40,873 nt of DNA from Candidatus Freyrarchaeum guaymasense (GTDB taxonomy: Archaea > Asgardarchaeota > Jordarchaeia > Jordarchaeales > Freyrarchaeaceae): the NCBI GenBank assembly GCA_030587405.1, contig JAUQZD010000086.1, positions 1-40,873 of the forward strand, written 5' to 3'. The notes under the pieces were generated by a model. It searched no databases, was not told the origin of the DNA, and worked only from the letters and a program-made list of their open reading frames with translations. Below, piece after piece: positions 2,019-40,873 of the stretch (the first letter of the stretch is position 1; the number at the start of each line of letters is the position of its first letter). The translations under genes and the position numbers were made by a program.

Positions 2019-2825
2019 CTACCATCCCAACCTCACTTGTTTAAGTTTTACCCCTGCAAGCCGCCTTACGAAGCGCTCTGCTCCTCTGACGCCGTTCTCC
2101 CTTAGGAACCTTTTAAGGGCATGCCTGTTCGGGGATGTAAAGAAGAATTTTACGTCTGCGACGGCTGGATGAAGAAATACTTTCCTGGCTTCAAGGAAAA
2201 CGCTCTTCGGCATGTTTAACGCTTCAAGCACGTTTTCCAGGCATCCATGCCTTTTCACCAGGGCAACAGCCGTTTTCACCCCCACCCCTTTAACGCCCTT
2301 GTTAAAGTCTGTCCCTGCTAGAACCGCCGCATCTACCAGCTGGGGGAGCGTTAACCCAGCCTTACGAAGCACGCTTCTCAAAGTCGCACCAGCTGCAGCC
2401 TCGACGCCTACACCTCTTACGACTAAGGGAGCCCCGAAAAGGAAGGCATCATAGTCCATGGTGTAAGCTGCGTCAACCACCTTTTTCATAGCCATATGGG
2501 CTGCCTGCGCTTCCGCTTCTCCCGGAGCATGAACGCACGGCACCCCCATGAGCTGCAGCCCTTCCTTCACCCTTTCAACGGCTTCCACCAGTCTGCTGCT
2601 TCCAGCAGTTTTCCCTTTAAGCTTGTGGGGGGCTCCGTCGAAGACGATAACCGGCTTAACCCCTAGTTCAAGAATCCTTAGCACCTTGTAGAGCATGTTG
2701 ACTACTGCGGAGCGTGTCCCTCCAGAGTTTAGTAGTCCAACAAGCACGTTATGCCCGTCCACCGCTAGCCTCCCTGGATGGGGAAGGACGCGCCACTCGA
2801 CGAAGGGCGAGAGGTTTACACCCAT
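2019..2825 (-). CDS. FEN-1/XPG-family nuclease with a shortened helical arch
   Basis: 268 residues, against about 340 for archaeal FEN-1. The N-terminus MGVNL matches the conserved processed FEN start and supports the ATG at 2825, which overlaps the end of the upstream gene. The metal-binding acids are all visible: D23 (AVDGHN), D63 (VFDG), E103 and E105 (PGEAEAQ), D124 and D126 (DYDAF), D173 (GTDFN), followed by the helix-hairpin-helix GVKGVGVKTA. D63 to E103 is 40 residues apart against about 72 in human FEN1, so the helical arch that threads 5' flaps is mostly missing. No C-terminal PCNA-binding QxxLxxFF motif is seen. A structure-specific 5' nuclease or exonuclease working with the RadA and helicase of the same operon is likely. 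It may not be the replicative FEN-1. Confidence 0.9.
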   Translation of the reverse strand: MGVNLSPFVEWRVLPHPGRLAVDGHNVLVGLLNSGGTRSAVVNMLYKVLRILELGVKPVIVFDGAPHKLKGKTAGSSRLVEAVERVKEGLQLMGVPCVHAPGEAEAQAAHMAMKKVVDAAYTMDYDAFLFGAPLVVRGVGVEAAAGATLRSVLRKAGLTLPQLVDAAVLAGTDFNKGVKGVGVKTAVALVKRHGCLENVLEALNMPKSVFLEARKVFLHPAVADVKFFFTSPNRHALKRFLRENGVRGAERFVRRLAGVKLKQVRLGW

Positions 2826-4243
2826 CTGCCTCCACCTCTCAGTGCTTCCTCCCCTTTACGGGTAACGGTGAAAACATGTCTTCCCCTCCTGTCCCTGTAA
2901 GACGCCAGGTATCCTCTGTCTTTGAGCCTTAATGCCAGCTCCCGGGCCATCTCACCCACTTCAGGGAGGCCGCCTACTATCTGGCTGAGCGTAATCTGGG
3001 GGAACTCGTAAACCAGCTGGAGAACCCTCAAAGCGTCTTCAGCCACCGAGCCGAAGTCCACTTGGAGGGGTGTACGACCTTCGACCGTGGGTAGTGGCTC
3101 GGCTTCAACGCTGGGGGCTTTCAAAGCATTGCTGAAAACGACGAGCATGGGTGAGGGAGCATCACTTCTTTGAACTACCGCTTCACCCCACCCTAGGTAC
3201 CTTAGGGCTTCCCTCTGGTATAGGCGCTGTCTCCTGTCGCTTTGAACGCTTGCCGCCTCCTCCCTAAGACCAATCAGGGATCCCGCAAGGAAGGTTTCTG
3301 CTCCATCGCTAAGCTTATGGACGACTCTGTTCTCCAACTTTTTAACAGTGTTTAGGTGGCTTGAAAGGTTCGACGTTAACGCCAGAACTCCAACCCCTTT
3401 CTCCTTTAACTTGTCGAAGACCCATGCTAAAGGCTCAGTGTCCTTGAAGGAGTCCAGCTCCACGACCACCGAGAACCCCCTAAGGCTTGACGTTAAGGCT
3501 TTAGCCATAAGAGATGCTTGTGCCACAGCCGCTAAGATGGGTGAGGGGAGACGTGCAGCCACCGGTTCCCCGGTGAGCCATGCAAGCTTTAGGGGCTGAG
3601 CTGGAGTGAGCTTCTCCACCCCCTTAAGCGAGAGTAGGAGACCTAGAGTTCTGTGCAGCCGCTCAGCCTCCCTTCTCTCAGCCGGACTCCTCAAGTCGCT
3701 CATAGACGCTTCCCTAACCTTCTCCTTCAAATCTATGAGGGAGAGGGCTCCCTCATCATAGCACATGTTCAGGGCGTCCTGCAGTATTTCAGCTTGAACG
3801 TCTGAGAGCCCCAAGGCTGACTGTAGGAGGAGTGCGAGCGTGGAGCCATAGTCCGGTGGGGAGGCGTCTTCCGGGTCTAGAGGGTTTAGGGGGAAGCCGT
3901 CGTAAACCCTTGCGGGGGGGACGAGTGACTTTATCACGTTCACGTTTTCGTTCGTCGCCACCAGGTGGCTCCAGCCGAGCTTGGCTGCTCCTTCAATGAT
4001 CTTTATGGCCGTGTTAAGCCTTTCATTCAAGCTTCCCCCAGCGACGAGAACCCCTCTTGACAGGTTCTCCACGGTGAAGCCGAAAGACGCGTGCGGCTCT
4101 AGGTTCTCTGCTTCAATTATCTTCCCAACGGTGAAGTCCACGGTTAGGGGTGGTGGAGTGAACTCTGCGGGCGGCCTGCTCGGCAACCCAACTCGTAGCA
4201 CGCCTTCAAGCGTCAGGTAGCGGTTGAGCTCGGCTCCCGTCAT
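2816..4243 (-). CDS. HerA/VirB4-like ATPase-fold protein with lost Walker motifs
   Basis: 475 residues. The layout follows HerA/VirB4/FtsK-type translocases: a leader GFTVENLSRGVLVAGG (55-70) where these proteins have GxTGSGKT, then a NPLDP-like strand (120-124), a helical insert, a strand-B region (FSVVVELDSF, 257-266), a region like their ILATQ/ sensor segment (VLALTSNLSSHLNT), a RxVHKLSD segment, and a winged helix at about 405-470. The P-loop lysine and threonine are replaced (SLNERL) and the Walker B acid pair is not present, so ATP hydrolysis is unlikely. It overlaps the two-TM gene upstream by 4 bases (ATGA). I infer a catalytically dead subunit or scaffold of a hexameric DNA pump. The fold assignment rests on motif order and needs a profile search. 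Confidence 0.65.
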   Translation of the reverse strand: MTGAELNRYLTLEGVLRVGLPSRPPAEFTPPPLTVDFTVGKIIEAENLEPHASFGFTVENLSRGVLVAGGSLNERLNTAIKIIEGAAKLGWSHLVATNENVNVIKSLVPPARVYDGFPLNPLDPEDASPPDYGSTLALLLQSALGLSDVQAEILQDALNMCYDEGALSLIDLKEKVREASMSDLRSPAERREAERLHRTLGLLLSLKGVEKLTPAQPLKLAWLTGEPVAARLPSPILAAVAQASLMAKALTSSLRGFSVVVELDSFKDTEPLAWVFDKLKEKGVGVLALTSNLSSHLNTVKKLENRVVHKLSDGAETFLAGSLIGLREEAASVQSDRRQRLYQREALRYLGWGEAVVQRSDAPSPMLVVFSNALKAPSVEAEPLPTVEGRTPLQVDFGSVAEDALRVLQLVYEFPQITLSQIVGGLPEVGEMARELALRLKDRGYLASYRDRRGRHVFTVTRKGEEALRGGGRWV

Positions 4244-4944
4244 AAAAAAGGGATCCCTCCTCCAGTCACAGCGTCGATTAGCCTTTTACCCCTCAGCACG
4301 TCCACTCTGTGGTGTGGGAACGCTGCTTCGAAGCATGACTTAACGTGTTGAACCCTTCTTCGGGCCTCCTCCACGGCCTCCTCCAGCCTATGCTTAGCCC
4401 TAACCATCGTCCCTATTAGGATTGTTGTTTTCCACACGCCTGCCACGGCTGCAGCGTTTTCCTCCTCGACGCCGGCTACTCCAGCGTGGACTGCTTCCTG
4501 CCTTGCGTGATAGAAGAAGGGGGTTTTGCTAAGGTAAAGCATTCTGAGGAACCTTTTCACGTCTCCTTTCACGACTTCCGGGACAAGCGAGACTTGGAGC
4601 ACACCATAGGCGTATGTCCCATCGCTCCTCCGGGCTACCAGTACATCCCTTCCAGCTGACAGGAAAAGTTCTGGGAGCCTAATGGGGGTTACCTTTTCAA
4701 GGCTTGGCTGGTGAAGTTTTAATGCGAACTTAAGAGCTAAGATAGTTAGAGCGATCGCTGAGAATGCGATTAGAGCTAAGAGGATGATGGGTGAAGGAGC
4801 CAAGGCTAGGGTGAGCGAAAGCGTAGCAGCAGCCGCTAGGATCCATGCCAAGCACGTAGAGGGCCTCCTACTCTTAAACCCAGCTTGGCTTAACCCCTCG
4901 CTGAACCCCCCGGTTTTCCCCCCTTCGCCTGCTACGTCACTCAT
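4240..4944 (-). CDS. two-TM protein with a possible VirB4-N-terminal-like domain
   Basis: 234 residues. After a polar 30-residue head, two membrane helices at about 31-49 and 52-75 form a hairpin with both ends in the cytoplasm. The soluble part (about 85-234) contains a basic strand/helix pattern, FLRMLYLSKTPFFYHARQ, a VGT-like TILIGTMVRA strand, and long Arg/Glu helices. This resembles the N-terminal domain of VirB4/TrbE-type conjugation ATPases. The next gene holds the matching, inactive ATPase fold, and the two overlap by 4 bases, so together they look like a split VirB4-like protein. The similarity is by eye. ATG start three bases after the upstream stop. Confidence 0.6.
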   Translation of the reverse strand: MSDVAGEGGKTGGFSEGLSQAGFKSRRPSTCLAWILAAAATLSLTLALAPSPIILLALIAFSAIALTILALKFALKLHQPSLEKVTPIRLPELFLSAGRDVLVARRSDGTYAYGVLQVSLVPEVVKGDVKRFLRMLYLSKTPFFYHARQEAVHAGVAGVEEENAAAVAGVWKTTILIGTMVRAKHRLEEAVEEARRRVQHVKSCFEAAFPHHRVDVLRGKRLIDAVTGGGIPFL

Positions 4945-4947
4945 CGC

Positions 4948-5268
4948 TCAAGCCTCCTGCCCCTCTTTGCTCATTTCTTTCTCGGCTTTCCAGAGAGTGC
5001 TGCATGCTCTCCTTATTCTGGCGGCGGTTTCCTCGGCAACTTCAGGGCTTGAAGCGATAACCGTCGCTTCCACCAAGTCTTCCTTTAGATCTATAACTCT
5101 TACACAGCATTCATCACCGTAAAGATGCCCGCATTTCTCCTCCATTTCAGGCAAGGCCGCTGCAATCATCCATTTCTCAGCTTTCAATCGGATCGTCCTC
5201 CTATGCTTCATTCTTCTCCGCCTAGCTTCAAGCCTTTTAACGTCTAAGGGTAAAATGAAGGGGAGCAC
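4948..5268 (-). CDS. small protein of unknown function in the operon
   Basis: 106 residues with a GTG start one base after the RadA stop. The first 35 residues are strongly basic (RRRRMKHRRTIR), and the rest is a mixed alpha/beta stretch with three cysteines (CGHLYGDECC) and a charged C-terminal helix. No family is recognised. The basic head suits contact with nucleic acid or with the inner membrane face. Its position between RadA and the membrane-ATPase genes suggests an accessory role to one of them. It is very likely a real gene because it is tightly sandwiched with the same codon style and has its own ribosome-site context in the RadA end. Confidence 0.7.
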   Translation of the reverse strand: MLPFILPLDVKRLEARRRRMKHRRTIRLKAEKWMIAAALPEMEEKCGHLYGDECCVRVIDLKEDLVEATVIASSPEVAEETAARIRRACSTLWKAEKEMSKEGQEA

Positions 5269-5269
5269 C

Positions 5270-6274
5270 CTACCACTCCTCCTCGCCTACCGGCTTCCCC
5301 TTCGCAGCCTCCTCCTCGCTTACATCCACCAGCCCCTTCGAAGTTATGGCGAAGAAGGTCGATGAGGGTGGCAGGGCTGGAGCGTCTACGAGGCTTGCAA
5401 CCCTCACGTTGTACTTTTTGGATGTTAATGCCACCCTGTAGGTGACCCCGTGGGCTACGACGTGTCCGCCTGTAGGTGCTTCGCTTTTCCCCCATACGTC
5501 TGGCTGGGCTTGAACCTGGTTCGTCACGACCACCGCCAGGTCGTAGCTTAGCGCTAAGCGGAGCAGGTCGTGTATCAGCCTGTTGATCTTCTGCTGCCTT
5601 AGGGCAAGCGTCTCCCTACCAGTGTACTCAGCCCTGAAGTGCCCTGTGAGGCAGTCTACTACGACGAGTTTGACCCTACTCTGCTTAACCACTTCGTCAA
5701 GGGACCTGACCGTTTGGTGAAGGGCTTCGCTGTTGACAGCGTATGTGTAAAACACGTTGTCGCATGCATCATCCGGGTCCAAGCCGAACCGCTCAGCAAT
5801 CCTGGCCAGGGCGTCATATCTTACCGTTCTCTCGGTGTCTATGTAGAGGGCTCTCCCTTCAAGCCCACCCTTTTCCTTGGGGAGCTGCACCGTGACGCAG
5901 AGCTGATGGCACATCTGGGTTTTTCCAGCCCTAGCCGGACCGTAGAACTCCGTTATGGCGCAGGTTTCAACGCCTCCGCCCAGAATCAGGTCAACCCCTT
6001 TAAGGCCCGTGGTGACGCGTTCAATGCTTTGAAGGATTCTTCTAGCCTCCCTGCCGGGGAGTATTTCGATGAGTTTTCCTCCACGTCCCTGGCCACGCGT
6101 CACAATACCCCTAGCCTCCTGAATTAGCCTTCTAGCCGTCAGCTCCCCTATGCCCGCGTCCGATGCAAGGTCTGAAGGATTAGCGAAAGCTACTGCTTCA
6201 ACCGTGCTGTAGCCTGCATTCATCAGCCTCCTTAGCTTGTCGGGTCCGACACCCTTTATTTCGCGTAGCTCCAT
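5270..6274 (-). CDS. radA: RadA-type recombinase, divergent
   Basis: 334 residues. An N-terminal helix-hairpin-helix domain (REIKGVGPDKLRRL, about 3-60) is followed by a RecA core: Walker A GPARAGKT (112-119), IDTER, Walker B LVVVDCLTGHF, and the loop/strand NQVQAQPDVWG...GGHVVAHG. This is the archaeal RadA/Rad51 layout, which makes a filament on single-stranded DNA and drives strand exchange. Differences from textbook RadA: P-loop GPARAGKT instead of GEFGSGKT, VRYDAL instead of FRPERI, and no evident FxxA polymerisation motif in the linker (about 60-85). ATG start directly after the upstream stop. It sits in the middle of the 15-gene operon, so it may be a specialised paralogue rather than the only RadA of the cell. 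Confidence 0.9.
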   Translation of the reverse strand: MELREIKGVGPDKLRRLMNAGYSTVEAVAFANPSDLASDAGIGELTARRLIQEARGIVTRGQGRGGKLIEILPGREARRILQSIERVTTGLKGVDLILGGGVETCAITEFYGPARAGKTQMCHQLCVTVQLPKEKGGLEGRALYIDTERTVRYDALARIAERFGLDPDDACDNVFYTYAVNSEALHQTVRSLDEVVKQSRVKLVVVDCLTGHFRAEYTGRETLALRQQKINRLIHDLLRLALSYDLAVVVTNQVQAQPDVWGKSEAPTGGHVVAHGVTYRVALTSKKYNVRVASLVDAPALPPSSTFFAITSKGLVDVSEEEAAKGKPVGEEEW

Positions 6275-7219
6275 TCAACCACCTCCAACATGCAGCTTCT
6301 CACATGACACCCTCTTCGGCGAGTGTAAGGCTCGGGTTAGGAAGGATTTGAGGGTGGATGAAGGATACGGGATGAACACGCATTGATGTTCGAAGCTTCT
6401 TCTAACAGCACGCCACCCGCCTCTTCTGCTTGCCTTGATACGTGAAAGAAAGGCAGCCGTCCATCCTTCACCAGACGGCTTAAGGAACAAGCCTGTTTCC
6501 TCCCCGTCTCCGACTGCTGGCGCCAGCGCCTCCCCCCTCCACGATGGCTTGTCCGGGTCTAAGGGGTATATGGGAGCGTACAGGAGTCTTTCAACCTCTA
6601 TCCACCCTTCAACGCGGGTGAACGTGAACCCAGCCGTCTTCAGAGCTTCTTCAAGCCAGCTCATTCTCCTCCTGACCGCTTCCACTGCTCTACTATAGCG
6701 CCTAGCTTCAGCGGTGACGGAAAGAATCACCTCGCCGTTGTATGCTTCAATGGTGAAAGCCAGGTTGTGTTTCCATGCTTCAGCCAGCAGGACTTCTGCG
6801 TCGCCGTGCGACGTAATCTTTAGGAAGGCTATGAGCCTAAAGCGGCTTCCCGTAAAAGCGGCAAACCAGTTTAGCACGGCTGAGGCGGTTAGAGGCGGGA
6901 AAGCTCGTAGTATCGCATAGATTACTGATGACGTGGCCAGAGCTAGAACAGGAATTAAAGGGAGAATGTTTGAAGGGTAGTTAGCCCTTAACGTGAGGGA
7001 AAACGCTAGGCAGGTGTGCCCTAACCCTCCAACCTCGATTAGCCTTGTTTTCCACGAGCCTTGAATGCGGCGGATGACCAAGTACGCTGTGATGTATATT
7101 GCTCCAATGTAGAAAGGGGCTTTGAAGCTTCCTTGGAGGCATGCCTGGGTTGCCTTGAACATGAAGAACGCTATGACAAGTATGAGGGGGGACAGCGCTA
7201 CGAGCAGCCAAGACCTCAC
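6275..7219 (-). CDS. membrane protein with cytoplasmic domain, operon member
   Basis: 314 residues. Hydrophobic segments at about 4-22, 34-52, 66-78 and 84-106 suggest four membrane spans, then a soluble domain from about 125 to the end. That domain has strands and a long charged helix (RYSRAVEAVRRRMSWLEEAL) with the same feel as the soluble part of the two-TM protein encoded at 4240-4944, and it could be a second VirB4-N-terminal-like domain. The GTG start follows the upstream TAG at once, with GGAGG nine bases before it. I do not recognise a named family. Lying between two RecA-family genes, it probably docks DNA-processing enzymes to the membrane. Confidence 0.7.
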   Translation of the reverse strand: MRSWLLVALSPLILVIAFFMFKATQACLQGSFKAPFYIGAIYITAYLVIRRIQGSWKTRLIEVGGLGHTCLAFSLTLRANYPSNILPLIPVLALATSSVIYAILRAFPPLTASAVLNWFAAFTGSRFRLIAFLKITSHGDAEVLLAEAWKHNLAFTIEAYNGEVILSVTAEARRYSRAVEAVRRRMSWLEEALKTAGFTFTRVEGWIEVERLLYAPIYPLDPDKPSWRGEALAPAVGDGEETGLFLKPSGEGWTAAFLSRIKASRRGGWRAVRRSFEHQCVFIPYPSSTLKSFLTRALHSPKRVSCEKLHVGGG

Positions 7220-7780
7220 CTACTTCAACCTCCTTAGCCAGCTGTGCAAGCCTTTAAAGGTAGGGGTGAGGTGTTCTAGGGGTTCCAGCGCTACCCTAGC
7301 AGCCATCCACTTTTCTAGGCGGATCGACTCGTCAGAGTACTTGTCCACTTCCTCCCCCTCCCAGGCTTTAACCTCCCCATTCATTGAAGTTACCTCGTTC
7401 AGCAACAGGACGCATAGCCCTCTCTTCAAGGCAGTCCTTCTCAGCCTTAGGGCGACAAAGGGGAGAAGCCTCAGCCTCCCGGTTTCCCTCAGATTCCTGA
7501 AAAGTCCTGCAACGGAGTCTACAACTATGAGCTTTACTCTCGGAGAAAGAAGACTTTCAACAGTTTCAGGTAGGCTGACGAGGCATTCATCGGATGAAAC
7601 CCTCAGGAAGACCACTCTGTCGCCTTCAAACTTTAGGAAGCCTCTAGGGATGCTTCTTGAAACGTAAATGGTCTGGAAGCCCCTACCTGACAGGGATGAC
7701 GCTACACGTAGCGCGAGGGTGGTCTTGCCGCTGCCCGCTTCACCATACACGTGGACTACTAATCCCCTCACGGCGACCAC
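7220..7780 (-). CDS. small RecA-superfamily ATPase (RadA paralogue, RadB/aRadC/KaiC-like)
   Basis: 186 residues, a bare RecA core with no N-terminal DNA-binding domain. Walker A GEAGSGKTT is at 13-21, and Walker B LIVVDSVAGLFR carries the aspartate. A KRGLCVLLLNEVTS strand then matches the NQV sensor region of RadA. Archaeal RadA paralogues of this size (RadB in Euryarchaeota, aRadC in TACK) help load or control RadA filaments. Having RadA two genes downstream supports that role. The start is GTG at 7780, right after the previous stop; a second GTG three codons later is possible. Subgroup placement needs a tree. Confidence 0.8.
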   Translation of the reverse strand: MVAVRGLVVHVYGEAGSGKTTLALRVASSLSGRGFQTIYVSRSIPRGFLKFEGDRVVFLRVSSDECLVSLPETVESLLSPRVKLIVVDSVAGLFRNLRETGRLRLLPFVALRLRRTALKRGLCVLLLNEVTSMNGEVKAWEGEEVDKYSDESIRLEKWMAARVALEPLEHLTPTFKGLHSWLRRLK

Positions 7781-8266
7781 CTAAACGTCTTTGAACACGA
7801 GCTTCCCGCCAACCTTAACCACCCTTCCCTGAGCCTCTAACCTCTCAATTAAGGGTTCAATCACGTTACGGTCGAAGACGTCGAACAAGTCCTCCTCGGA
7901 GACCACGCCGCCCATCATGCTGACAAAGCTCATAAAGCTCGTCAACCCGTTAGGACGCCGTCCGCGCTCTTCCCCAAGTCTTCCATGCATCCCCAGGATG
8001 CCTATGGTCTCTCGCTGCTTGAACGTGGCTCGTACGGAACAACTAAAATCACTACCCGAACGGGTCCCGCCCGTAGACGTCGGGGCTGCAAATCCTTTTT
8101 CCCCATCTACCCGTTGTGCTTGGAGCAACCTAACCTTCTCCGCCGCCTCCCTGGCGTTCTCCACTTCACACACCTTCTTACCCCACCCTCCACAGCGAGG
8201 GCACTTTGGCCTCTTAGCCTTGGAGGAGAAGTAGGAGTTGCAAACTGTGCACACGCAAACCTTCAT
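7781..8266 (-). CDS. zinc-ribbon plus winged-helix-like protein
   Basis: 161 residues. A rubredoxin-like zinc ribbon opens the protein: CTVC at about 6-9 and CPRC at about 22-25. A helix and a low-complexity Gly/Ser/Thr linker (about 60-75) follow. The C-terminal part has a helix-turn-helix/wing pattern (EEDLFDVFDRNVIEPLIERLEAQ then GRVVKVGGKLVF). This combination is common in archaeal DNA-binding or transcription accessory proteins. It overlaps the helicase gene by 4 bases (ATGA), so the two are co-translated and may act together. The function is not known from sequence. It could be a regulator of the operon or a DNA adaptor of the helicase. Confidence 0.7.
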   Translation of the reverse strand: MKVCVCTVCNSYFSSKAKRPKCPRCGGWGKKVCEVENAREAAEKVRLLQAQRVDGEKGFAAPTSTGGTRSGSDFSCSVRATFKQRETIGILGMHGRLGEERGRRPNGLTSFMSFVSMMGGVVSEEDLFDVFDRNVIEPLIERLEAQGRVVKVGGKLVFKDV

Positions 8267-29179: not shown

Positions 29180-30748
29180 CTACTGGTCTTCTTCACTGGG
29201 AGATATGTAGAAGGAGTGGTCTGACAGGTTTTTAGGGTCTAAGGCTGCCTTTATTTTTCGCATCCATTTATGGTAGTTGCACATGAGGGGGCCGTACATG
29301 TCATGGGTCTCCGCACCCTCTGTGAGGGCCTCTAAGCCGAAGCCGAGACGCTCCTCTATCGCCGTGTTTACGCATGCCTGAAGGTACTCTCTGGCACCAT
29401 CCTTAGATGCGGGATCCCTGGGATCGTAGAGGAATAGCTCTTCTAGGTGTCCAAAGTATCCGTGCTCGTAGATGCCTCCCCACGCGTTGTCGCCTCCATC
29501 ATCTGTTAGGGCGCCAGCTTCGATGAAGCGCTTTTTCAGCGCCTCCCCGATCTTAGCTCCTCTAACCGCGGAGTCCCATGACTCAAGCGAGCCAAGGGAC
29601 GTGTGGAAGCTGCCGGACGCCTTGAACACGCCTCTAGCATTGTAGCAGCACTTGATCATCGCTAGGAAAAGCTGCCTTTGAGTAAACTCGTCCTCTGCAA
29701 GTGGGTGGTTGCGTCCGCCGGTCTTCTCGAGAATGGCCCTTAAAACTTTTTCCTCGTATTCAACCTGCCTCTTCGACCCACCCAACACTATCACAAAGTT
29801 AAACCTTGCATCCTTAAGGGCTCCGCTCTCCCACAGCGAGTAAAAATCCTTCACCGAAGGGGAAAGAGCCATGCCGATCAGGAATGGTGCATTTCTACAC
29901 ATAACCATGCCTATTTCAGCTTCGCCAACCATGTAGGCGGCGTCCGCGAAGCTCTTCCAGTCGGGGAACACGGGAACATACACTCTGAAGTTTTCCGGCA
30001 CCTCGACTTCGTAGAAGGGCGTTGCCCCCTTAGCCTCAAGGGAAGGAGGACCCGGCCACTCGTAAAGCTTAACCGCGCACTTGGTGAAAACGCCTAGCCC
30101 GCCCAAGGTGCCCGCCCACCCTCTCATCGCCCCTCTAAGGCTTGGCCCGGGTCCATCCCCGCAGAACCACCCGGATCCGCATCCAAGAGATCCTAGCCTT
30201 AATATTTCCCCTGTTGGGAGAACCCATTCAACTGCCAGCACGTTTCTACCGCTATGACTCATTTTTATCCCGGTCCACCCATAGCCGCACATGGACGTGC
30301 AGCTCGCCAGAACAGACGCGTTGGCCCCAGCCCCTATGATGTGGCATGTAAGCCCCTTCTTCATGGCTTCTACTTGAAGCTGCGCGAACGTTACGTATGG
30401 CTCAACAACCGCGTACATGTTGTCCTCGTCAATCATTACTATCCTGTTCATTCTTCTAAGGTCTAGCAGAATGACGCCTTCTCTCCCAACCCCGCTCCAC
30501 ACCCCCCACCCTGTGCTATGAGCCTTAAACTTTATGTTAAAGCGATTGCAGATCTTCACGACAGCCTGAACCTCCTCGGTGCTCCCCGGGAGGACGACGG
30601 CAGCCGGCCTTGGAAGCCACTTGGCTCCCCCCTCCTGAAGCTCAGCAAGGTACTGGAACGAGTAGGAGTCAAGTATGACCGGGTCGTCGGACACGTTTTC
30701 CTCCCCAACAACCTCCTCAATCATCCTGTAGGCGAGCTTAGGTATCAT
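29180..30748 (-). CDS. FAD-linked oxidase, GlcD/VAO-type
   Basis: 522 residues. The FAD-binding domain of the vanillyl-alcohol oxidase family is visible: LPGSTEEVQAVVKIC, HSTGWGVWSG, VILLDLRRMNRI, YAVVEPYVTFAQLQ, and GTLGGLGVFTKCAVKL as the flavin-binding turn. A C-terminal substrate cap and FAD-linked oxidase domain follow. The family includes glycolate, D-lactate and 4-cresol dehydrogenases. It overlaps the Fe-S gene upstream by 4 bases (ATGA). It probably passes electrons from a hydroxy-acid or similar substrate to the Fe-S protein. The substrate is not readable. Confidence 0.85.
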   Translation of the reverse strand: MIPKLAYRMIEEVVGEENVSDDPVILDSYSFQYLAELQEGGAKWLPRPAAVVLPGSTEEVQAVVKICNRFNIKFKAHSTGWGVWSGVGREGVILLDLRRMNRIVMIDEDNMYAVVEPYVTFAQLQVEAMKKGLTCHIIGAGANASVLASCTSMCGYGWTGIKMSHSGRNVLAVEWVLPTGEILRLGSLGCGSGWFCGDGPGPSLRGAMRGWAGTLGGLGVFTKCAVKLYEWPGPPSLEAKGATPFYEVEVPENFRVYVPVFPDWKSFADAAYMVGEAEIGMVMCRNAPFLIGMALSPSVKDFYSLWESGALKDARFNFVIVLGGSKRQVEYEEKVLRAILEKTGGRNHPLAEDEFTQRQLFLAMIKCCYNARGVFKASGSFHTSLGSLESWDSAVRGAKIGEALKKRFIEAGALTDDGGDNAWGGIYEHGYFGHLEELFLYDPRDPASKDGAREYLQACVNTAIEERLGFGLEALTEGAETHDMYGPLMCNYHKWMRKIKAALDPKNLSDHSFYISPSEEDQ

Positions 30749-32025
30749 TCACCCACCTCCAACGATTTAGCAACCAGGCTGGTTAGATCGTAGACCTTAA
30801 GGCTTCCGTCGCCGTTAAGGGCGTCTGAAAGGTTTATTTCGCAGAACGGGCAGCATGTGACTATCGCCTGTGCACCGGTCGACTTGGCCTCCTCCACCCG
30901 CTCCCTTGCACCCCAGAGGGCGAAGTCCGGGAAGGCTGCCTTAACCCCTCCTCCAGCGTTGCAACAGTAAGCGTACTCCCTTATCCGCTCCATCTCGACG
31001 AGTTCGACTCCTGGAATACTTTTGAGGACGTTTCTGGGCGGGTCGTAGACGCCTCCTCCCCCGCGCCTGACGGGCTTAGGTGGATCCGTTAGTATGAGGT
31101 GGCCTAGCACCTTCTTTTCGACGCCGCTCCAGGGTGTTCTGGGCTCACCGAGGCGGCCGAGATGGCAGGGATCGTGGTACGTCACCTTCAACGGCACTTT
31201 ACCGGTGAGCTTTAAAGAGGAATCTCTTATCAGCTTCTCCAGTAGCTGGGATGTGTGGAGGACCTCAAACCCTAGCTCAGCGACCGTCGGATACTCGACC
31301 TTAAACATCCTGTAGCATCCAGCGCACGATGTGACTAGTGTCTCAACGTTCAGCTTGTTTACGAGCTCAACGTTTCTCCTAGCATGCTTCTCGAAGACGT
31401 CCCTGGCGCCGATCTTGTAGGCTGTACTTGCGCAGCACGGCTCCTCGCTTCCAAGTATTCCAAAGTCCACGCCGGCAGCCTTCAATATCTTAACGGTGTT
31501 CACCGCGACCTCTGGACGTCTTAAAGCCGCCGTGCACCCTACGAAGTATAGTACGTCGGCCTTTTCCTTATTCAAATCCTTAACCTTCAGGTTTTTAGCC
31601 CAGGCAGCCTTCTTCTCCTTGACTTCCCCGTAGGGGTTACCGTGCCTCAACGTGTTCTCTATTATCTCCCTGTGCTTAGGGAGCACAGCCCCCTCCTCGT
31701 ATAGTTGAACCCTGAAGGCGTGCAGCGTCTCGTAGACCTCTATGTCGGAGTTATGCTTGCATGACACGTCGCACGCCCCACACATGCTACACCTGTAAAC
31801 CAGGTCGACGAGGGACTTCGTGAGGCCTATCCTCCCTTGCAGGTACGCGTACGCCACTATCAGCCGTCCCCCGCCGGAGTACGCGTGAAAGTTATATCTT
31901 TGAATGCTGGGGCAGATGTTGGAAAACCTCCAGCTTTTAACCTGAGCGAGAGGAGGCCACTTGCAAAGGCTACATCTGAAGCACATTTCCATGTACCTTT
32001 CATAGTCCTCCAGCATGGCGGACAC
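30745..32025 (-). CDS. GlcF/HdrD-like Fe-S electron-transfer subunit with CCG domains
   Basis: 426 residues. N-terminal iron-sulphur clusters: an unusual first site CFRCSLC followed only about 18 residues later by the fourth Cys (ICPS), and a normal second site CSMCGACDVSCK. Two CCG domains follow, with CCAST, SCAGCY, CCNAGGG and CCPFCE; in HdrD-like proteins they hold a non-cubane cluster or pass electrons to a carrier. GTG start one base after the upstream stop. With the flanking FAD oxidases it forms a glycolate- or lactate-dehydrogenase-like complex on the inner membrane face. Confidence 0.85.
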   Translation of the reverse strand: MSAMLEDYERYMEMCFRCSLCKWPPLAQVKSWRFSNICPSIQRYNFHAYSGGGRLIVAYAYLQGRIGLTKSLVDLVYRCSMCGACDVSCKHNSDIEVYETLHAFRVQLYEEGAVLPKHREIIENTLRHGNPYGEVKEKKAAWAKNLKVKDLNKEKADVLYFVGCTAALRRPEVAVNTVKILKAAGVDFGILGSEEPCCASTAYKIGARDVFEKHARRNVELVNKLNVETLVTSCAGCYRMFKVEYPTVAELGFEVLHTSQLLEKLIRDSSLKLTGKVPLKVTYHDPCHLGRLGEPRTPWSGVEKKVLGHLILTDPPKPVRRGGGGVYDPPRNVLKSIPGVELVEMERIREYAYCCNAGGGVKAAFPDFALWGARERVEEAKSTGAQAIVTCCPFCEINLSDALNGDGSLKVYDLTSLVAKSLEVGE

Positions 32026-32026
32026 C

Positions 32027-33487
32027 TCAGAAGCAGAGTTTTCCAGGGTTGAAGATCCCGTTCGGGTCGAATATCCCTTTAAGTTTCCTGAGAACGGACG
32101 TTGTCTCCGCGTCTCCGCCGTAGGCGATCTCAGCCCACAGCCCGTAGGGCCTGCTGTAGAATGCTCCTAGCCTGAACATGGCTCGGCTGGCATCCTGGAA
32201 GAACACCCTCACTAGCTCCTCCTCAGCTTCAGGGTCGTACGGGAGGGTAAACTCCAAGTGTGCGGCGCATCCCTGTATTATTGGTTGAATGTAAACGCCG
32301 ACGTCCCTTTCTGGGTACCCTTTCAGCCGAGACAACTCCATGAATTCCTTCCAGAACATGGGGGTCATGTTAAGGGTGGTCAGGAAGAATATGTCCTGGC
32401 AGCCACCCTTATACCTAAGCTTCCAGTAGGGTTCCTTAGACGGGGACTGGAGAACACCTAGTATCGTGGAGGAGTCAACCCCGTCTAGCTCGTCGGTCAA
32501 CTCGAGTTTAAGCGATTTCGCCGCTTCTTTCACCTCGCCGAGCTGGTACTCTACTCGCTCTTCCGGGAAGAAGGTGTATCCTGCAAGAACCGTGATGAGA
32601 ACCCATGCTGGAAGCGAGGCTGCCTCTCCCTCATCCGGATGGCGCCCTAGGAGGTATGCAAGGTATGAGTTGTTAAGGATTAGGAGTTCCTCTCCTATCC
32701 TGCGTCGTAGAAGCCTGTATGCTAACGGGATAAGCTTCTTAAGGGAGTCCGACTTGGCGACGACGAGCTGCTGAAGGGAGGGTTTAATCCTGCACCTCAC
32801 GGTGGCCCATGTGACAATCCCCATCGTCCCCTGTGCTCCATGGAAAAACCTGACGAAGTCGGCTTGGGCCGGGCCTAGAGGGTTCGCCAACCCCTGCCCC
32901 ACGCTGACCAGCTCATCTATTTCTCCCGGTCCAGCAGCTGACCCTGTTCTTAGCACGTCCCCGGTGCCCAAGATCGCCTCTGTGCATAGGAGGGGGTCAA
33001 GGGACTCCCAGTGATACTTTGGAGTGGTTATAGGCTCTCTTTCGAGGTAGCTTGCCAAAGCCGACTTTCTAAGCTTGGGGTGAAGAGGCATTAACGGGAG
33101 TAAGCCATGCTTCTCAAGCTCGTCTTTAAGCTGCTTAAATGTTACGCCTGGCTGGATCATTGCAATCCTGTTACGCCTGTCAACGCTTAAGACCTTGTTC
33201 ATCCTAGTTAAATCAACTACGACTCCCCCCATCGATGGGACGGTGTCGCCTTTAAACCTTGGGGGACCAGAGCTCACGGGGATAAGGGGCATTCCCTGCC
33301 TCGAGGCTAACACTACTATTTCTCTAACCTCCTCGGGTGAGGACGGATACACGACGAAGAATGGCTTCCTTGAGGGCGTGAAGCTGTTATCCTTCGAATA
33401 CTCCTCAAGCGTCGCCGGATCGTCGGCGACGTTTTCATCTCCAACTATCTTAGCCAATTCCTCCCTCCTAATACCAGCTTCCCCCAA
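32027..33487 (-). CDS. second FAD-linked oxidase, GlcD/VAO-type
   Basis: 486 residues. PSSPEEVREIVVLASRQG, VSSGPPRF, GVVVDLTRMNKV, MIQPGVTFKQL and GAQGTMGIVTWATV are the FAD-binding segments, and FDPNGIFNPGKL is the family's C-terminal signature. It is a paralogue of the product encoded at 29180-30748, and the two flank one Fe-S subunit. It is first in the operon. Start: TTG 33487 may be leaderless behind a CTTTTAAG box at about 33520, but an AGGAGG six bases before TTG 33457 allows a shorter protein. The pair may oxidise two related substrates or form a heterodimer like GlcD/GlcE. Confidence 0.85.
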   Translation of the reverse strand: MGEAGIRREELAKIVGDENVADDPATLEEYSKDNSFTPSRKPFFVVYPSSPEEVREIVVLASRQGMPLIPVSSGPPRFKGDTVPSMGGVVVDLTRMNKVLSVDRRNRIAMIQPGVTFKQLKDELEKHGLLPLMPLHPKLRKSALASYLEREPITTPKYHWESLDPLLCTEAILGTGDVLRTGSAAGPGEIDELVSVGQGLANPLGPAQADFVRFFHGAQGTMGIVTWATVRCRIKPSLQQLVVAKSDSLKKLIPLAYRLLRRRIGEELLILNNSYLAYLLGRHPDEGEAASLPAWVLITVLAGYTFFPEERVEYQLGEVKEAAKSLKLELTDELDGVDSSTILGVLQSPSKEPYWKLRYKGGCQDIFFLTTLNMTPMFWKEFMELSRLKGYPERDVGVYIQPIIQGCAAHLEFTLPYDPEAEEELVRVFFQDASRAMFRLGAFYSRPYGLWAEIAYGGDAETTSVLRKLKGIFDPNGIFNPGKLCF

Positions 33488-33556: not shown

Positions 33557-34537
33557 TTATGGCTTACCTGAAATTCTGTCATACTTAAAGTTGAATACTT
33601 CAACTTCGCTTCTCCCGTTGGCTATGATGAGCTTTCCAGCAGAAATCACTTCACCTATTATCGAGACCGCTACACCCTTACTTCTAAATAGTTTAATGCA
33701 TTCCTCCGCCTTGCTTGCCTTCGCCGTTAAAACCACCCCGAAACCGGGGTATGAGCAAAGCCACTTCTCCATGCTCACGTTAGGCGGTTTAGGTATGTGT
33801 TCAACGTTCACTATTCCCCCCACGCCGCTTGCTTCTAGGAGCATGCCGAGCGTGCCGAGGATGCCTGGGTTGCTCACGTCCTTCGCCGCGGTTGCCAGCC
33901 CGGCTTCAGCAACACTCCACATAGAGCTAAGCTTGAGCTTAACTTCTTCAGGAGGCTTCCACGACGTTGAATCCCACGCATAGGGAAACCGTTCATGGAA
34001 GCGGCCATCTAAGTCTACGGCTAGCAGGATCCTATCTCCCGGGGAGGCTGTGTCACTAAACACGACGTTCTCCTTCTTAACCGTCCCTATGACCATCACG
34101 GAAAGCGACGCTACGGGAGCGTCTGGGTGAAGGTGTCCGCCGACGACAGGAACAGAAAACTTTTTGCACCCGAAAACCATTCCTTTAATGACCTTGGAAG
34201 CGTCATCCCAGTTTGCAACGCTTAGAGAGTCTAAGAGAGCTATAGGAGTTCCACCTTTAGCAACCACGTCGTTGACGTTGACGAGGACCGAGCAGTAGCC
34301 TGCGAAGAATGGGTCAGAGTCTAGGAGAAGGTGCCACATGCTGTCAACAGCCACTAAGAGGTAGTTTTCCCATCCGACGTCCAGGACTGCTGCGTCCTCC
34401 CCGAAGGAGCGCACGGCAACGCCGGACAAGCCGAGGGTTTCCTTTAGAAGAGAGGTAACCCTGTGAATCTCCCTTTTACGGTTAACGCCCTTAAAGCTCC
34501 TGACAGCTGAAGCTAGGGACTCGACGTCCAAATGCAA
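33557..34537 (-). CDS. AIR-synthase/SelD/ThiL-superfamily ATP-binding protein
   Basis: 326 residues. The PurM-like fold is shown by FGEDAAVLDV, VAVDSMW, VNVNDVVAKGGTP, VVGGHLHPDAP and DVSNPGILGTLGMLLEASGVGG, the metal and nucleotide residues of the PurM/SelD/ThiL/HypE group. Its style is closest to the AIR-synthase-related proteins that include methanogenesis marker 2 and the sll0787 group. It lacks the N-terminal Cys/Sec-Gly-x-Lys loop that selenophosphate synthetase uses, so I do not call it selD, even though a tRNA-Sec lies about 160 bases upstream. TTG start (34537). Confidence 0.75.
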   Translation of the reverse strand: MHLDVESLASAVRSFKGVNRKREIHRVTSLLKETLGLSGVAVRSFGEDAAVLDVGWENYLLVAVDSMWHLLLDSDPFFAGYCSVLVNVNDVVAKGGTPIALLDSLSVANWDDASKVIKGMVFGCKKFSVPVVGGHLHPDAPVASLSVMVIGTVKKENVVFSDTASPGDRILLAVDLDGRFHERFPYAWDSTSWKPPEEVKLKLSSMWSVAEAGLATAAKDVSNPGILGTLGMLLEASGVGGIVNVEHIPKPPNVSMEKWLCSYPGFGVVLTAKASKAEECIKLFRSKGVAVSIIGEVISAGKLIIANGRSEVEVFNFKYDRISGKP

Positions 34538-34613: not shown

Positions 34614-34717
34614 GCGTCGATGAAGGCTGAGGTTAGAGCTGGGAGGAGGCGTGCATCCGAAGAAGCGGCTGGACTCTTCCGGATTCCCGTTTTATGGTTT
34701 GGCGGCGGGCTGGGGGA

Positions 34718-34735
34718 TTTCCGCCCATGAGGGGT
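34718..34735 (-). other. predicted T-loop intron of the tRNA-Sec (18 bases, position 59/60)
   Basis: A clean BHB: outer helix GGGG/CCCC (T stem), 4-bp helix TTCG/CGGA, 3-base bulges ATA and AAT, inner stem CCC/GGG. Splicing restores a 7-base T loop TTCGATT. Introns at 59/60 are known from Thermoproteota tRNAs. The unspliced sequence mimics a second T arm (GGGGTTCGATACCCC). Confidence 0.75.
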
Positions 34736-34769
34736 ATCGAACCCCGAACCCTTACCGGGTTCCTCGGAT

Positions 34770-34793
34770 TTCCTCCCTTCAGTCAGGGAGTGT
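34770..34793 (-). other. predicted anticodon-loop intron of the tRNA-Sec (24 bases, canonical 37/38)
   Basis: The 4-bp helix CTTC/GAGG and two AAA bulges fit the BHB rule at the classical 37/38 position and restore the loop CTTCAAA. The inner helix is weak. An alternative CTCCC/GGGAG stem inside the intron competes with it, so the exact fold is less sure than for the other two introns. Confidence 0.65.
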
Positions 34794-34813
34794 TTGAAGT
34801 CCGAGGCAGGGGA

Positions 34814-34830
34814 CTGGGCAGCCACGGCTT
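34814..34830 (-). other. predicted D-loop intron of the tRNA-Sec (17 bases)
   Basis: A near-perfect BHB motif. The 4-bp central helix is GGGT (34833-34836) with GCCC (34816-34819). The 3-base bulges are GGA and AGT. The inner stem is AGC/GCT with a CGTG loop. Cutting after the second bulge base on each side rejoins the D loop as TGGT. The outer helix (CAGCGG/CCCCTG) has one C-C mismatch. Confidence 0.75.
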
Positions 34831-34876
34831 CCACCCCCGCTGCAGCCCGCCACTCGACTTTAACATTTTAGAGGGA

Positions 34877-34886
34877 GCTTATAAAA
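34877..34886 (-). promoter_or_regulatory. TATA box of the tRNA-Sec gene
   Basis: The minus strand reads TTTTATAAGC about 26-35 bases before the tRNA 5' end, the normal archaeal spacing, so the transcript would start almost at the tRNA. Confidence 0.65.
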
Positions 34887-38145: not shown

Positions 38146-40873
38146 TCAGCCTCTCCGGACTCTGATGCGTGGAACCCGGAAGCGCCTCCTAGAAGTTGAC
38201 CTGACCCTGTCGAGCCATGCCTTAACCCTGATTGGAAGCGCCCTTATGATCTTCATCCTCTGGCGTGCTAGGAAGAGCTCTATGCTGGCCATCTTATTGG
38301 CTGGGATGCTCCAGACCCTGTAGAATCCCTCGCCGACCCTTGATGCCGCAGCACGCGTTTTTGCCCTAACGGTTGAAGACAGCCGTCTTCTAGCCTTGGA
38401 GAGGTATGTCCTGCTCCTGTAGTAAACCATGTAGGCGCGGGTTTCCGGTGCAAAGTACCTCTTCTGGATTCTTCTGGCTCCTCTCCCAGCTGCGATGGCT
38501 ACGGGTGGAACTATCACCCTTGCAACGACTAGTCCAACCAAGGCTAGCGTGGCTATTAGTGGCGTGGTGATGGCTATCGAGAGCGATGGCAAGGGTAGCA
38601 GGCCTGTAGAGGTCACAGCCGAGGACGATGAAAGGGATACTATTGAGCCTAGGTTCATCGAGGGGGCATTGAAGGCGTTTAGCATCCCTGTTATCTGGGT
38701 TGAACCTGATATGATGACGCCGTTCTGAGCGACGGTCATGTCACCGTCCACCCTTACTGACCCGTAGATTAGTGACTGAGCCATCATCACCTGCCCGAGG
38801 GTCAGCATTGGGTTCGTCAGCATGGACGTTAGGAGAGACGGGTTTAGGAGGATCTGCATCAGCCCCCTGACGAGCGTGCTGCCGAGGGTTAAGGTTGGAG
38901 CTACTATGAAGGTGGCGCCGTTCATCTCGACGTTGCTCAGGGTGAGGATCCCAGTCGAGCTAATGTCTCCTGATATCTTAACACTGCACGATATCTCTGT
39001 TCCCTTATCTGTAACCTTCAGGACTCCGTCCACCACCTCAACTTTCCCGTCACGTATGACTGTTACCCCGTCCATCACCATGCGGTCTGCCCTGAGCTGG
39101 ACGGTTCCAGACATCAGGTTGTTCGTGTTCACGCTTCCAGACATTTCAACGCTGCCCGTTATGGCCGATGAGCCACGCATCTCGACCACGCCGCCCTCCA
39201 TAGTCACGTCTCCCTTGATAGTGAGGGAGCCGTTAACGGTCAGGCCTCCATCAACGCTCACGTCTCCCGATATGAATATCCCTGAAGCGTTTATGTCGGT
39301 GGCGCTGGAGCTCATGGAAAGGGACCCGTTGATGAGCTGGGAGCCCTCAACCTCCACCGTTCCCTTGGCGCTCATGGTGGCGTTCCTCAGTATGCTCACC
39401 CCGTTAATGTCGGAGTCACCGGTCGATGTGAGGGAGCCGTCAATCACGTTCTTGCCGCTGATATTGACCAAGCCGTTTATCACGTTTGACTCGCCAGCCA
39501 TGCTGACTCCGTCATCCGAGATGGAGGCGTATCCAGAGGACAAGGTTATGGATCCCTTAACGTTCATCGACGTGAACGGTGAAACACCGATTTCGATGTC
39601 TCCCTCCATCGACAGGTCGCCGGTAACCGTGAGGACACCGCTGACTTCTAAGCTACCCGAGATCACCGTGTCACCCGTCACGAAGATTCCGGAAGCGTTA
39701 ACGAGCATTCCACCCGAAGACATGCTCAGAGAGCCGTTAACACTCTGCGACCCCTCCAGCTCAACCCTCCCAACAGCCTCCATGGTGGCGTTCCTCAGTA
39801 TGTTCACCCCGTTAATGTCGGAGTCGCCGGTCGATGTGAGGGAGCCCACCATCACCAGCCTACCATCAATGAAAACCTCACCGCTAATCACCGAGTCACC
39901 ACTTAAGTTAACCAAGTCAGCTGAGATGTAGGACTGGCCCGATGGCATACTGATCGAACCATTCACCATGAAAGTCGACTTAACGGCTCCGTAATCCCTG
40001 CTAAGCACGAGAGAGCCGGTAAGCATTAGACCATTAATAACTACGATGGTCGGCAGGGGGATAAGCTGAGAGCCCTCCACGCTGAGGAGGGCGCCCTCAC
40101 CCACTTCCTGACATTCACTAGAGATCTCAGCGTTGCTTATGAATACACGTTTCGCCCCACGAATCCACATGTAACTATCGCTACCCCAAGAATCAGCAAA
40201 AAGGCTTAAGGCCTCAATGTGAACCAAGGGGCTACCAGCGCCACTAGAACCATTAACCTTAAGCCCAACCGGAACACCAGCTGAGCCACCAGAAAAGGTC
40301 ATCATGACACTCGAGTTGGACTCAAGCACAAACTCGCTGTTGTTAAGGAGCACCACGCTTCCATCAGACAGAGCCATAGGGTTAATTCCTGGACCAGTCC
40401 AAGCCTCCCAGACAGTACCAGACCCCCACTCCATCGAAATAACATCTATGTAATGGTTGTTTTCCGTCGCCTTCAACGCAATGAGGTCGTCCAAGTCTAA
40501 TGTTTGAACCGGGATTATTGTTGCCCAAAAACGTATTGTTGGGAGCTTTCTATCTTCAGCAAGTTTACTAAAATTAGCAACCCCACCGTAACTAGTAAGG
40601 TCAACATAGTTTACGTCAGCCACCCACTCCTCGGATATTAAATCCCCTGGTACATCGATATCAAATGTTACGTGTGTGCTGTTAATTCTAATTATTACGT
40701 TGGCTGTAGCTCCTATCTGGATGTTTAGTAACTCAAGTGCCGAACTGTACTCCTGAGTATAGATGGTTAATGTTCCCTGAGTCACTTTTATAGCGGTTCT
40801 AGTGTCCGACTTAATAATTCTGTTAAAACCTAATGGGTCGCCTATGTAGCCGCCTGCGTTGCTGGCTGAAGAG
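38146..40873 (-). CDS. large beta-helix surface protein with basic cytoplasmic tail (start lies outside the window)
   Basis: The frame is open from the GTG at 40785 to the window edge, so the N-terminus is missing. About 700 residues are built of short Gly/Ser/Asn/Val repeats with a hydrophobic face (units like GSLTVTGDLSMEGD), which form a right-handed beta-helix. Many NxS/T sequons show it is outside the cell and probably glycosylated. A membrane helix (LIATLALVGLVVARVIV) follows, then about 130 strongly basic cytoplasmic residues (RRRFRVPRIRVRRG at the end). Repeats suggest an adhesin or cell-wall/S-layer component. The basic tail is unusual. It could bind lipid head groups, nucleic acid or a partner. 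Confidence 0.75.
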   Translation of the reverse strand, partial: SSASNAGGYIGDPLGFNRIIKSDTRTAIKVTQGTLTIYTQEYSSALELLNIQIGATANVIIRINSTHVTFDIDVPGDLISEEWVADVNYVDLTSYGGVANFSKLAEDRKLPTIRFWATIIPVQTLDLDDLIALKATENNHYIDVISMEWGSGTVWEAWTGPGINPMALSDGSVVLLNNSEFVLESNSSVMMTFSGGSAGVPVGLKVNGSSGAGSPLVHIEALSLFADSWGSDSYMWIRGAKRVFISNAEISSECQEVGEGALLSVEGSQLIPLPTIVVINGLMLTGSLVLSRDYGAVKSTFMVNGSISMPSGQSYISADLVNLSGDSVISGEVFIDGRLVMVGSLTSTGDSDINGVNILRNATMEAVGRVELEGSQSVNGSLSMSSGGMLVNASGIFVTGDTVISGSLEVSGVLTVTGDLSMEGDIEIGVSPFTSMNVKGSITLSSGYASISDDGVSMAGESNVINGLVNISGKNVIDGSLTSTGDSDINGVSILRNATMSAKGTVEVEGSQLINGSLSMSSSATDINASGIFISGDVSVDGGLTVNGSLTIKGDVTMEGGVVEMRGSSAITGSVEMSGSVNTNNLMSGTVQLRADRMVMDGVTVIRDGKVEVVDGVLKVTDKGTEISCSVKISGDISSTGILTLSNVEMNGATFIVAPTLTLGSTLVRGLMQILLNPSLLTSMLTNPMLTLGQVMMAQSLIYGSVRVDGDMTVAQNGVIISGSTQITGMLNAFNAPSMNLGSIVSLSSSSAVTSTGLLPLPSLSIAITTPLIATLALVGLVVARVIVPPVAIAAGRGARRIQKRYFAPETRAYMVYYRSRTYLSKARRRLSSTVRAKTRAAASRVGEGFYRVWSIPANKMASIELFLARQRMKIIRALPIRVKAWLDRVRSTSRRRFRVPRIRVRRG
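39373..39846 (-). repeat. near-identical 66-base repeat inside the beta-helix gene
   Basis: Bases 39373-39438 and 39781-39846 differ at two positions only. They are 408 bases (136 codons) apart and encode TSTGDSDINGV(S/N)ILRNATM. This nucleotide-level likeness points to recent duplication or gene conversion in the repeat protein. Confidence 0.8.

Follow-up and report, generated by a model that had tools for sequence, protein, structure and literature searches.

A selenocysteine tRNA gene with three predicted introns in a likely Jordarchaeia-type Asgard archaeon

Introduction

Can a gene for selenocysteine (Sec) tRNA be interrupted at three places and still yield a canonical tRNA? The question is raised by contig JAUQZD010000086.1, whose 40,873 nucleotides (nt) were analysed as a whole and are referred to as the window. 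From position 34851 (G1) to position 34700 (the last A of CCA), its minus strand carries a candidate tRNA-Sec gene of 152 nt with four exons. We are highly confident that this is a tRNA-Sec gene, the transcript of which is predicted to be cut at three bulge-helix-bulge (BHB)-type motifs and ligated to a 90-nt tRNA plus CCA.

Results

The gene spliced in silico folds like an archaeal tRNA-Sec

The gene and the element upstream of it are composed as follows.

34879..34886, minus strand: TATA-box-like element TTTTATAA, ending 27 nt upstream of G1
34831..34851, minus strand: exon 1, with the 5' strand of the acceptor stem (9 nt), 2 nt, the 5' strand of the D stem (7 nt) and the D-loop bases UGG; identical in the related genomes G001, G074 and G075
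34814..34830, minus strand: predicted intron 1, in the D loop, 17 nt; bulges GG^A and AG^U in the window
34794..34813, minus strand: exon 2, with the final U of the D loop, the 3' strand of the D stem, the 5' strand of the anticodon stem and CUUCAA including the UCA anticodon
34770..34793, minus strand: predicted intron 2, in the anticodon loop at position 37/38, 24 nt; bulges AA^A and AA^A
34736..34769, minus strand: exon 3, with the 3' strand of the anticodon stem, the variable arm (6 base pairs (bp) plus 5 nt), the 5' strand of the T stem and UUCGAU
34718..34735, minus strand: predicted intron 3, in the T loop at position 59/60, 18 nt; bulges AU^A and AA^U
34700..34717, minus strand: exon 4, with U60, the 3' strands of the T and acceptor stems, G73 and the encoded CCA

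Joined, the exons give 93 nt (90 nt plus the encoded CCA), and the minimum-energy structure of this product is an archaeal tRNA-Sec cloverleaf of -59.8 kcal/mol, in which every stem pair is standard. It comprises an acceptor stem of 9 bp and a T stem of 4 bp (the 9/4 fold), a 7-bp D stem (GCGGGGG/CCCCTGC) with the D loop UGGU, a 6-bp anticodon stem with the 7-nt loop CUUCAAA containing UCA, a variable arm of 6 bp with a 5-nt loop, the T loop UUCGAUU, and G73 followed by CCA. A D-to-T pattern matched the window once and none of 100 shuffled versions; the match begins at GTGG, 2 bases upstream of the gene. The first-pass annotation had read 34700..34851 as a tRNA-Sec whose D, anticodon and T loops each contain an intron. 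The location is right, on the minus strand, and the computed fold contains the acceptor and T stems, the UGGU and CUUCAAA loops with UCA, the long variable arm, G73 and CCA that it had listed; its 6-bp D stem, in contrast, has to be corrected to 7 bp. The three introns are supported as well, as their removal gives the exact tRNA-Sec cloverleaf and relatives are interrupted at the same sites.

tRNA-Ser also has G73 and a long variable arm, so these two features would also fit if the gene encoded another UGA-reading tRNA, i.e., a Ser- or Trp-like suppressor with a UCA anticodon. The 9/4 fold, the 7-bp D stem and the 4-nt D loop, however, constitute the signature of archaeal tRNA-Sec given in passages of PMC5330540, and all of them are found here. 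Moreover, SelB and PSTK genes are encoded near the tRNA gene in three relatives (see below). A suppressor tRNA is hence highly improbable.

The gene is conserved in Jordarchaeia

The RadA protein of the window is 85% identical to that of Candidatus Jordarchaeum sp. LHC_1308 (genome G001), while the runner-up match reaches 62%. Ca. Jordarchaeum belongs to the class Jordarchaeia of the kingdom Promethearchaeati. Judged by core-gene identity and gene order rather than by a whole-genome phylogeny, the window likely derives from a Jordarchaeia-type Asgard archaeon. The first-pass annotation had expected the tRNA to extend the range of selenocysteine. This expectation was not borne out, because Jordarchaeia have already been reported to use it: passages of PMC9723677 describe Sec machinery and a tRNA-Sec in the metagenome-assembled genome (MAG) LHC_bin_1308. 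The idea of selenocysteine in a new, unrelated lineage was rejected on the grounds of the RadA identity and this published use in the class.

The class set consisted of eight genomes, G001 and G073 to G079, and the tRNA-Sec gene was matched in five of them (G001, G074, G075, G077 and G079). In G001, G074 and G075, the gene is interrupted at the three bonds at which the window gene is, with intron lengths (D/anticodon/T) of 16/13/17, 18/15/17 and 20/12/18 nt, respectively. The genes of G079 (28/34 nt) and G077 (28/33 nt) have the D and T introns only; their CUUCAAA is uninterrupted, and intron 2 is absent. Splicing of all six class genes, including that of the window, leads to a 93-nt product. 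The exact mature fold is obtained for the window, G001, G074 and G075; G077 and G079 show one C-U mismatch in the anticodon stem, where the predicted minimum-energy fold keeps four of the six pairs.

Between the window and G001, G074 and G075, 91-92 of the 93 exon positions are identical. The introns have diverged, with 9-13 identical positions in alignments of 17-24. TTTATAA boxes precede the gene by 26 nt in G074 and 28 nt in G075. The upstream boxes are weaker or shifted in G001 (24 nt) and G079 (20 nt), and none is clear in G077.

Predicted BHB-type motifs at the intron boundaries

In the BHB test, the four exon bases lying two back from the 5' cut were compared with the four intron bases lying two back from the 3' cut. 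The test covered the 16 introns of the six class genes. At the predicted register, a 4-bp central helix was present in 15 of 16 introns (D loop 6/6, anticodon loop 4/4, T loop 5/6). All three window introns combine such a helix with flanking 3-nt bulges at the splice sites: GGGU/GCCC for intron 1 (4 bp in all six class sequences), CUUC/GAGG for intron 2 and UUCG/CGGA for intron 3. Apart from one D-loop register (see below), slid registers reach 4 bp less often, in one to three genes, the T-loop register -4 giving three of six.

Introns in tRNA-Sec across Asgard archaea

The survey of the phylum comprised 227 Asgard genomes. The Rfam model RF01852 scored over its cut-off in 71 of them, including G055, where the matched tRNA has a UGA anticodon and is of the Ser type, and three genomes with an anticodon-loop intron. 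For the 30 best-scoring of the 71, the loci were retrieved, and each of them contains an intron-free tRNA-Sec; the rest were judged by match length only. A UGGU D loop together with a UUCGAUU T loop occurs in 28 of these 30 intron-free genes. The two exceptions, L019 (G086) and L022 (G085), have the T loop UUCGACU, a D loop other than UGGU and possibly a 6-bp D stem.

A pattern requiring a T-loop intron, at the site of intron 3 of the window, matched 35 of the 227 genomes (reversed control: 1), and none of the 35 has an RF01852 match over the cut-off. Model-based surveys therefore likely miss selenocysteine users, and the users undercounted in this way would fall in the Asgard archaea, the group closest to eukaryotes. 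A D-stem intron accompanies the T-loop intron in 22 of the 35 genomes. In 21 of them (L169-L189) it is the only further intron, located in the 5' strand after the sixth base, and G081 combines D-stem, anticodon and T introns. The layout of the window, with D-loop, anticodon and T introns, recurs in G001, G074 and G075, and D-loop plus T introns only were read in G077 and G079. G002 (L160/L197) and G166 (L191) have D-loop and T-loop introns plus a predicted 23-nt variable-arm intron with the same motif in both. Thus, two three-intron layouts besides that of the window occur in Asgard archaea, one of them partly predicted. Anticodon plus T introns were found in G154 and a T intron only in G096, G176, G177 and G178, while the gene of G099 is cut by a contig end. 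An anticodon-loop intron alone is present in G161, G083 and G097, which score over the Rfam cut-off, and in G094, which scores below it. In total, at least 39 of the 227 genomes (35 by pattern plus four read) carry tRNA-Sec introns, up to three per gene, and genes with introns at other sites would be overlooked by these patterns. A D-loop pattern matched 45 of the 227 genomes, but its reversed control matched 25; on reading that list, only G001, G002, G074, G075, G077, G079 and G166 proved to have a true D-loop-intron tRNA-Sec, and each of them was already among the 35 genomes matched by the T-loop-intron pattern.

Stem pairing was counted over 35 spliced genes (34 genomes plus the window; G099, whose D side would fall beyond the end of its contig, and repeat fetches of G081, G002 and G099 were dropped). 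Pairs are formed in 902 of 910 stem cells, and two-sided changes that keep pairing occur in 18 of the 26 stem pairs. The stem and anticodon-intron figures are partly imposed, because the parser demanded 8/9 acceptor, 5/7 D and 5/6 anticodon pairs and, for anticodon introns, 3/4 central pairs. The T stem, paired in 140 of 140 cells, was unconditioned, as were the helices of the D and T introns. The central helix of the T introns measures 4 bp in 24 genes and 3 bp in 11, and slid registers give 4 bp in at most five of the 35. Central helices were likewise present in 30 of 30 D introns and six of six anticodon introns, and all eight D-loop introns reach 4 bp.

Relatives encode the Sec machinery and a splicing endonuclease

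The Sec machinery that the first-pass annotation had named as a check was found, in relatives of the window. PSTK was matched in seven of the eight class genomes, with no match over the family cut-off. SelB scored over the cut-off in five genomes and SelD in seven. SepSecS is present in G001, the sole genome tested. All eight carry FlpD genes whose reading frames contain one or two TGA codons. The genes for tRNA-Sec, SelB and PSTK share one contig within about 8 kb in G077, 15 kb in G079 and 40 kb in G075.

The splicing endonuclease EndA is encoded in all eight genomes, with two paralogues in six. In G075, paralogue 1 aligns with the catalytic subunit of Aeropyrum pernix and has kept the His residue; paralogue 2 has a Val at the position of the Methanocaldococcus jannaschii catalytic His, which the relatives of this paralogue, L131-L133, also lack. 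The class probably has, as we infer from these sequences, an (alpha beta)2 endonuclease, which passages of PMC4090602 associate with non-canonical introns.

Taken together, the archaeal splicing endonuclease would cut the transcript at three BHB-type motifs, presumably at all of the predicted bonds, and the exons would be ligated to the 90-nt tRNA plus CCA. If the window's organism shares the Sec machinery of its relatives, the mature tRNA would be serylated, phosphorylated by PSTK, converted by SepSecS and would then carry selenocysteine to UGA codons.

Observations against a three-intron tRNA-Sec gene and alternative explanations

A number of observations weigh against this reading. On the raw sequence, ARAGORN reported no gene and Rfam no match at the gathering score. 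At a lax threshold, RF01852 reached 22.2 bits on the raw gene (cut-off 47), with a misaligned acceptor; a score below the cut-off is expected, because introns interrupt the gene. No tRNA-Sec match was found in three of the eight class genomes (G073, G076 and G078), and inspection of their contigs near the AIR-synthase-like gene or SelB for a tRNA-Sec yielded nothing further. The absence in G078 may reflect incompleteness, because the contig ends 2.8 kb past SelB. PSTK was not matched in G074, SelB did not score over the cut-off in G073 and G074, and the SelB gene of G001 is cut by a contig end. As for the splice motifs, the D-loop register 5 nt further on, which equals the mature D stem, also gives 4 bp in five of six sequences. 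When the D arm is folded in isolation, a structure that retains the D stem is energetically preferred to the canonical BHB in six of six (-17.9 versus -7.2 kcal/mol for the window). Intron 2 is almost devoid of an inner helix (0-1 bp by a strict test), and the T intron of G075 forms only three of the four central pairs.

The failure of the standard tools to recognise the gene would suit a tRNA-Sec pseudogene in decay, in which three insertions arose at random. Such decay is, however, hard to reconcile with the sharing of all three insertion points by four genomes, that of the window among them, with near-identical exons around diverged introns, and with a TTTATAA-type box 26-28 nt upstream of the gene in three of these four genomes. 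It is also contradicted by the pairing-preserving changes in the stems of the 35 spliced genes and by the retention of selD and of FlpD genes with in-frame TGA in the relatives. We therefore consider a pseudogene very unlikely.

The D-arm energies bear on another alternative, namely a tRNA-Sec that keeps the D-loop insert as an enlarged D arm, so that not all three inserts are removed. The D-arm fold with the insert and the D stem is the more stable one in all six class genes, and in five of them it pairs UGG with CCA. Yet the length of the insert (16 to 28 nt) and its sequence differ between these genes. A plain UGGU loop is found in 28 of the 30 intron-free Asgard genes, and removal of the insert restores UGGU exactly. 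The 4-bp central helix, furthermore, is present in eight of eight D-loop introns. Retention of the insert is thus unlikely, and we favour removal of all three introns. The motif of intron 1 may, however, be relaxed rather than a canonical BHB, given these energies in all six sequences. The same energies weaken the idea that intron 1 blocks the 7-bp D stem before splicing. Intron 2 would mostly be of the bulge-helix-loop type. Relaxed motifs are substrates of some archaeal endonucleases, as stated in passages of PMC12397907 and PMC4033280.

A predicted intron in selD

In the selD genes of the class, Sec is encoded in the active site (HGUxCK). Between the segments encoding NDVY and A(I/K)G, the reading frame is interrupted by an insert of 30-34 nt, which contains an in-frame TAA or shifts the frame. 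A BHB is present in all seven readable copies (L113-L119, from G001 and G074-G079), G073 containing only a C-terminal piece. In this motif, GTGT pairs with GCAT or GCAC (4 bp), and the bulges are A(C/T)^A and AA^G; the inner helix has 8-10 bp, formed by quite different sequences. With the insert removed, SelD of G074 aligns without a gap over the site with human SEPHS1 and reaches 335 bits against PRK14105 (cut-off 291). We conclude that the insert is a conserved BHB intron that is predicted to be spliced from the mRNA.

SelD matches were obtained in 126 of the 227 Asgard genomes. Among the matches listed, none outside the class contained a TAA and nearly all had one TGA only, although a frame-shifting intron could be overlooked in this phylum-wide list. 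Our literature search found no paper that pairs selenophosphate synthetase with a BHB motif.

As both the tRNA-Sec and the selD mRNA carry introns, both are predicted to need the splicing endonuclease. We see an even chance that the code expansion of Jordarchaeia passes through EndA twice, via the three introns of tRNA-Sec and via the BHB intron of selD, whose product, the selenium donor enzyme, is itself a selenoprotein. If so, the maturation of both RNAs would make EndA a common gate for the use of selenocysteine. selD would be a further archaeal protein-coding gene that relies on pre-mRNA splicing, and selenium metabolism would be tied to RNA splicing.

Neighbouring and other genes of the window

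In the window, G001, G074 and G075, the tRNA-Sec gene is flanked by an acyl-CoA synthetase gene (85-87% identical) on one side and an AIR-synthase-like gene on the other.

33557..34537, minus strand: AIR-synthase-like gene, directly 3' of the tRNA gene; TIGR03267 363.8 bits (cut-off 365)

An orthologue of this gene adjoins tRNA-Sec in all five relatives with the tRNA gene, i.e., G001 (split over two contig ends), G074, G075, G077 and G079 (loci L060, L061, L062, L063 and L064/L156). It belongs to the SelD/PurM superfamily, near methanogenesis marker 2. Its assignment as SelD was rejected: the SelD score was 49.3 bits (cut-off 125), and in the relatives SelD is encoded by another gene. Viral contigs encoding the neighbour protein were inspected and led nowhere.

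At 38146-40785, the window encodes a long protein that is rich in repeats and has a basic tail at its C terminus; G001, G074 and G075 have related sequences near tRNA-Sec, in more than one stretch. Of three genes in the region 29180-33487, the outer two are FAD-linked oxidase-like and the middle one is an HdrD/GlcF-like iron-sulfur gene; two of the three assignments have a profile basis, and the gene at 32027 was named from sequence only. This trio resembles the Dld-HdrD clusters of Jordarchaeia described in passages of PMC9723677. A FEN1-like gene, RadA and a small RecA/KaiC-like ATPase gene lie together at 2019-8266; the match of the first to the FEN1 profile is confined to the later part of that profile.

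Comparison with known systems

Within the literature searched, three introns in one tRNA-Sec appear to be unreported. No such gene was found there; supplements lay outside the search, and the Supplementary Data of PMC11291895 may list one. The word "intron" does not occur in the main text of PMC9723677 or PMC11227280.

The closest published case is the tRNA-Sec of Lokiarchaeota with its single T-arm intron of 31 nt (passages of PMC5330540 and PMC9499178), which a 2022 review described as the only archaeal case in tRNA-Sec (PMC9499178, in the part consulted). Lokiarchaeota and the window share the Asgard affiliation, the 7-bp D stem and the T-arm intron, whereas the window gene has three introns, those in the D and anticodon loops being added. 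Judged by the name, the tRNA-Sec reported for Ca. Jordarchaeum LHC_bin_1308 and the gene of G001, which is interrupted by the three introns seen in the window, should come from one MAG.

In Freyarchaeia (= Jordarchaeia) and Atabeyarchaeia, 92-95% of the tRNA genes contain introns; over half are multi-intron, often at non-canonical sites, and a Sec tRNA is present (passages of PMC11291895). The window gene is like these multi-intron tRNAs; the passages themselves are silent on introns of the Sec tRNA. Among other tRNAs, the three-intron tRNAs of Thermoproteales (passages of PMC4033280) match the window gene in intron number, and tRNA-Ile(UAU) of Cyanidioschyzon carries introns in the same three arms, D, anticodon and T (start of the abstract of PMC9602550), but neither is a tRNA-Sec. 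For the predicted selD intron, the protein-coding comparison is the pre-mRNA intron of cbf5 in Crenarchaeota (passages of PMC2738675), which resides in another gene and another lineage.
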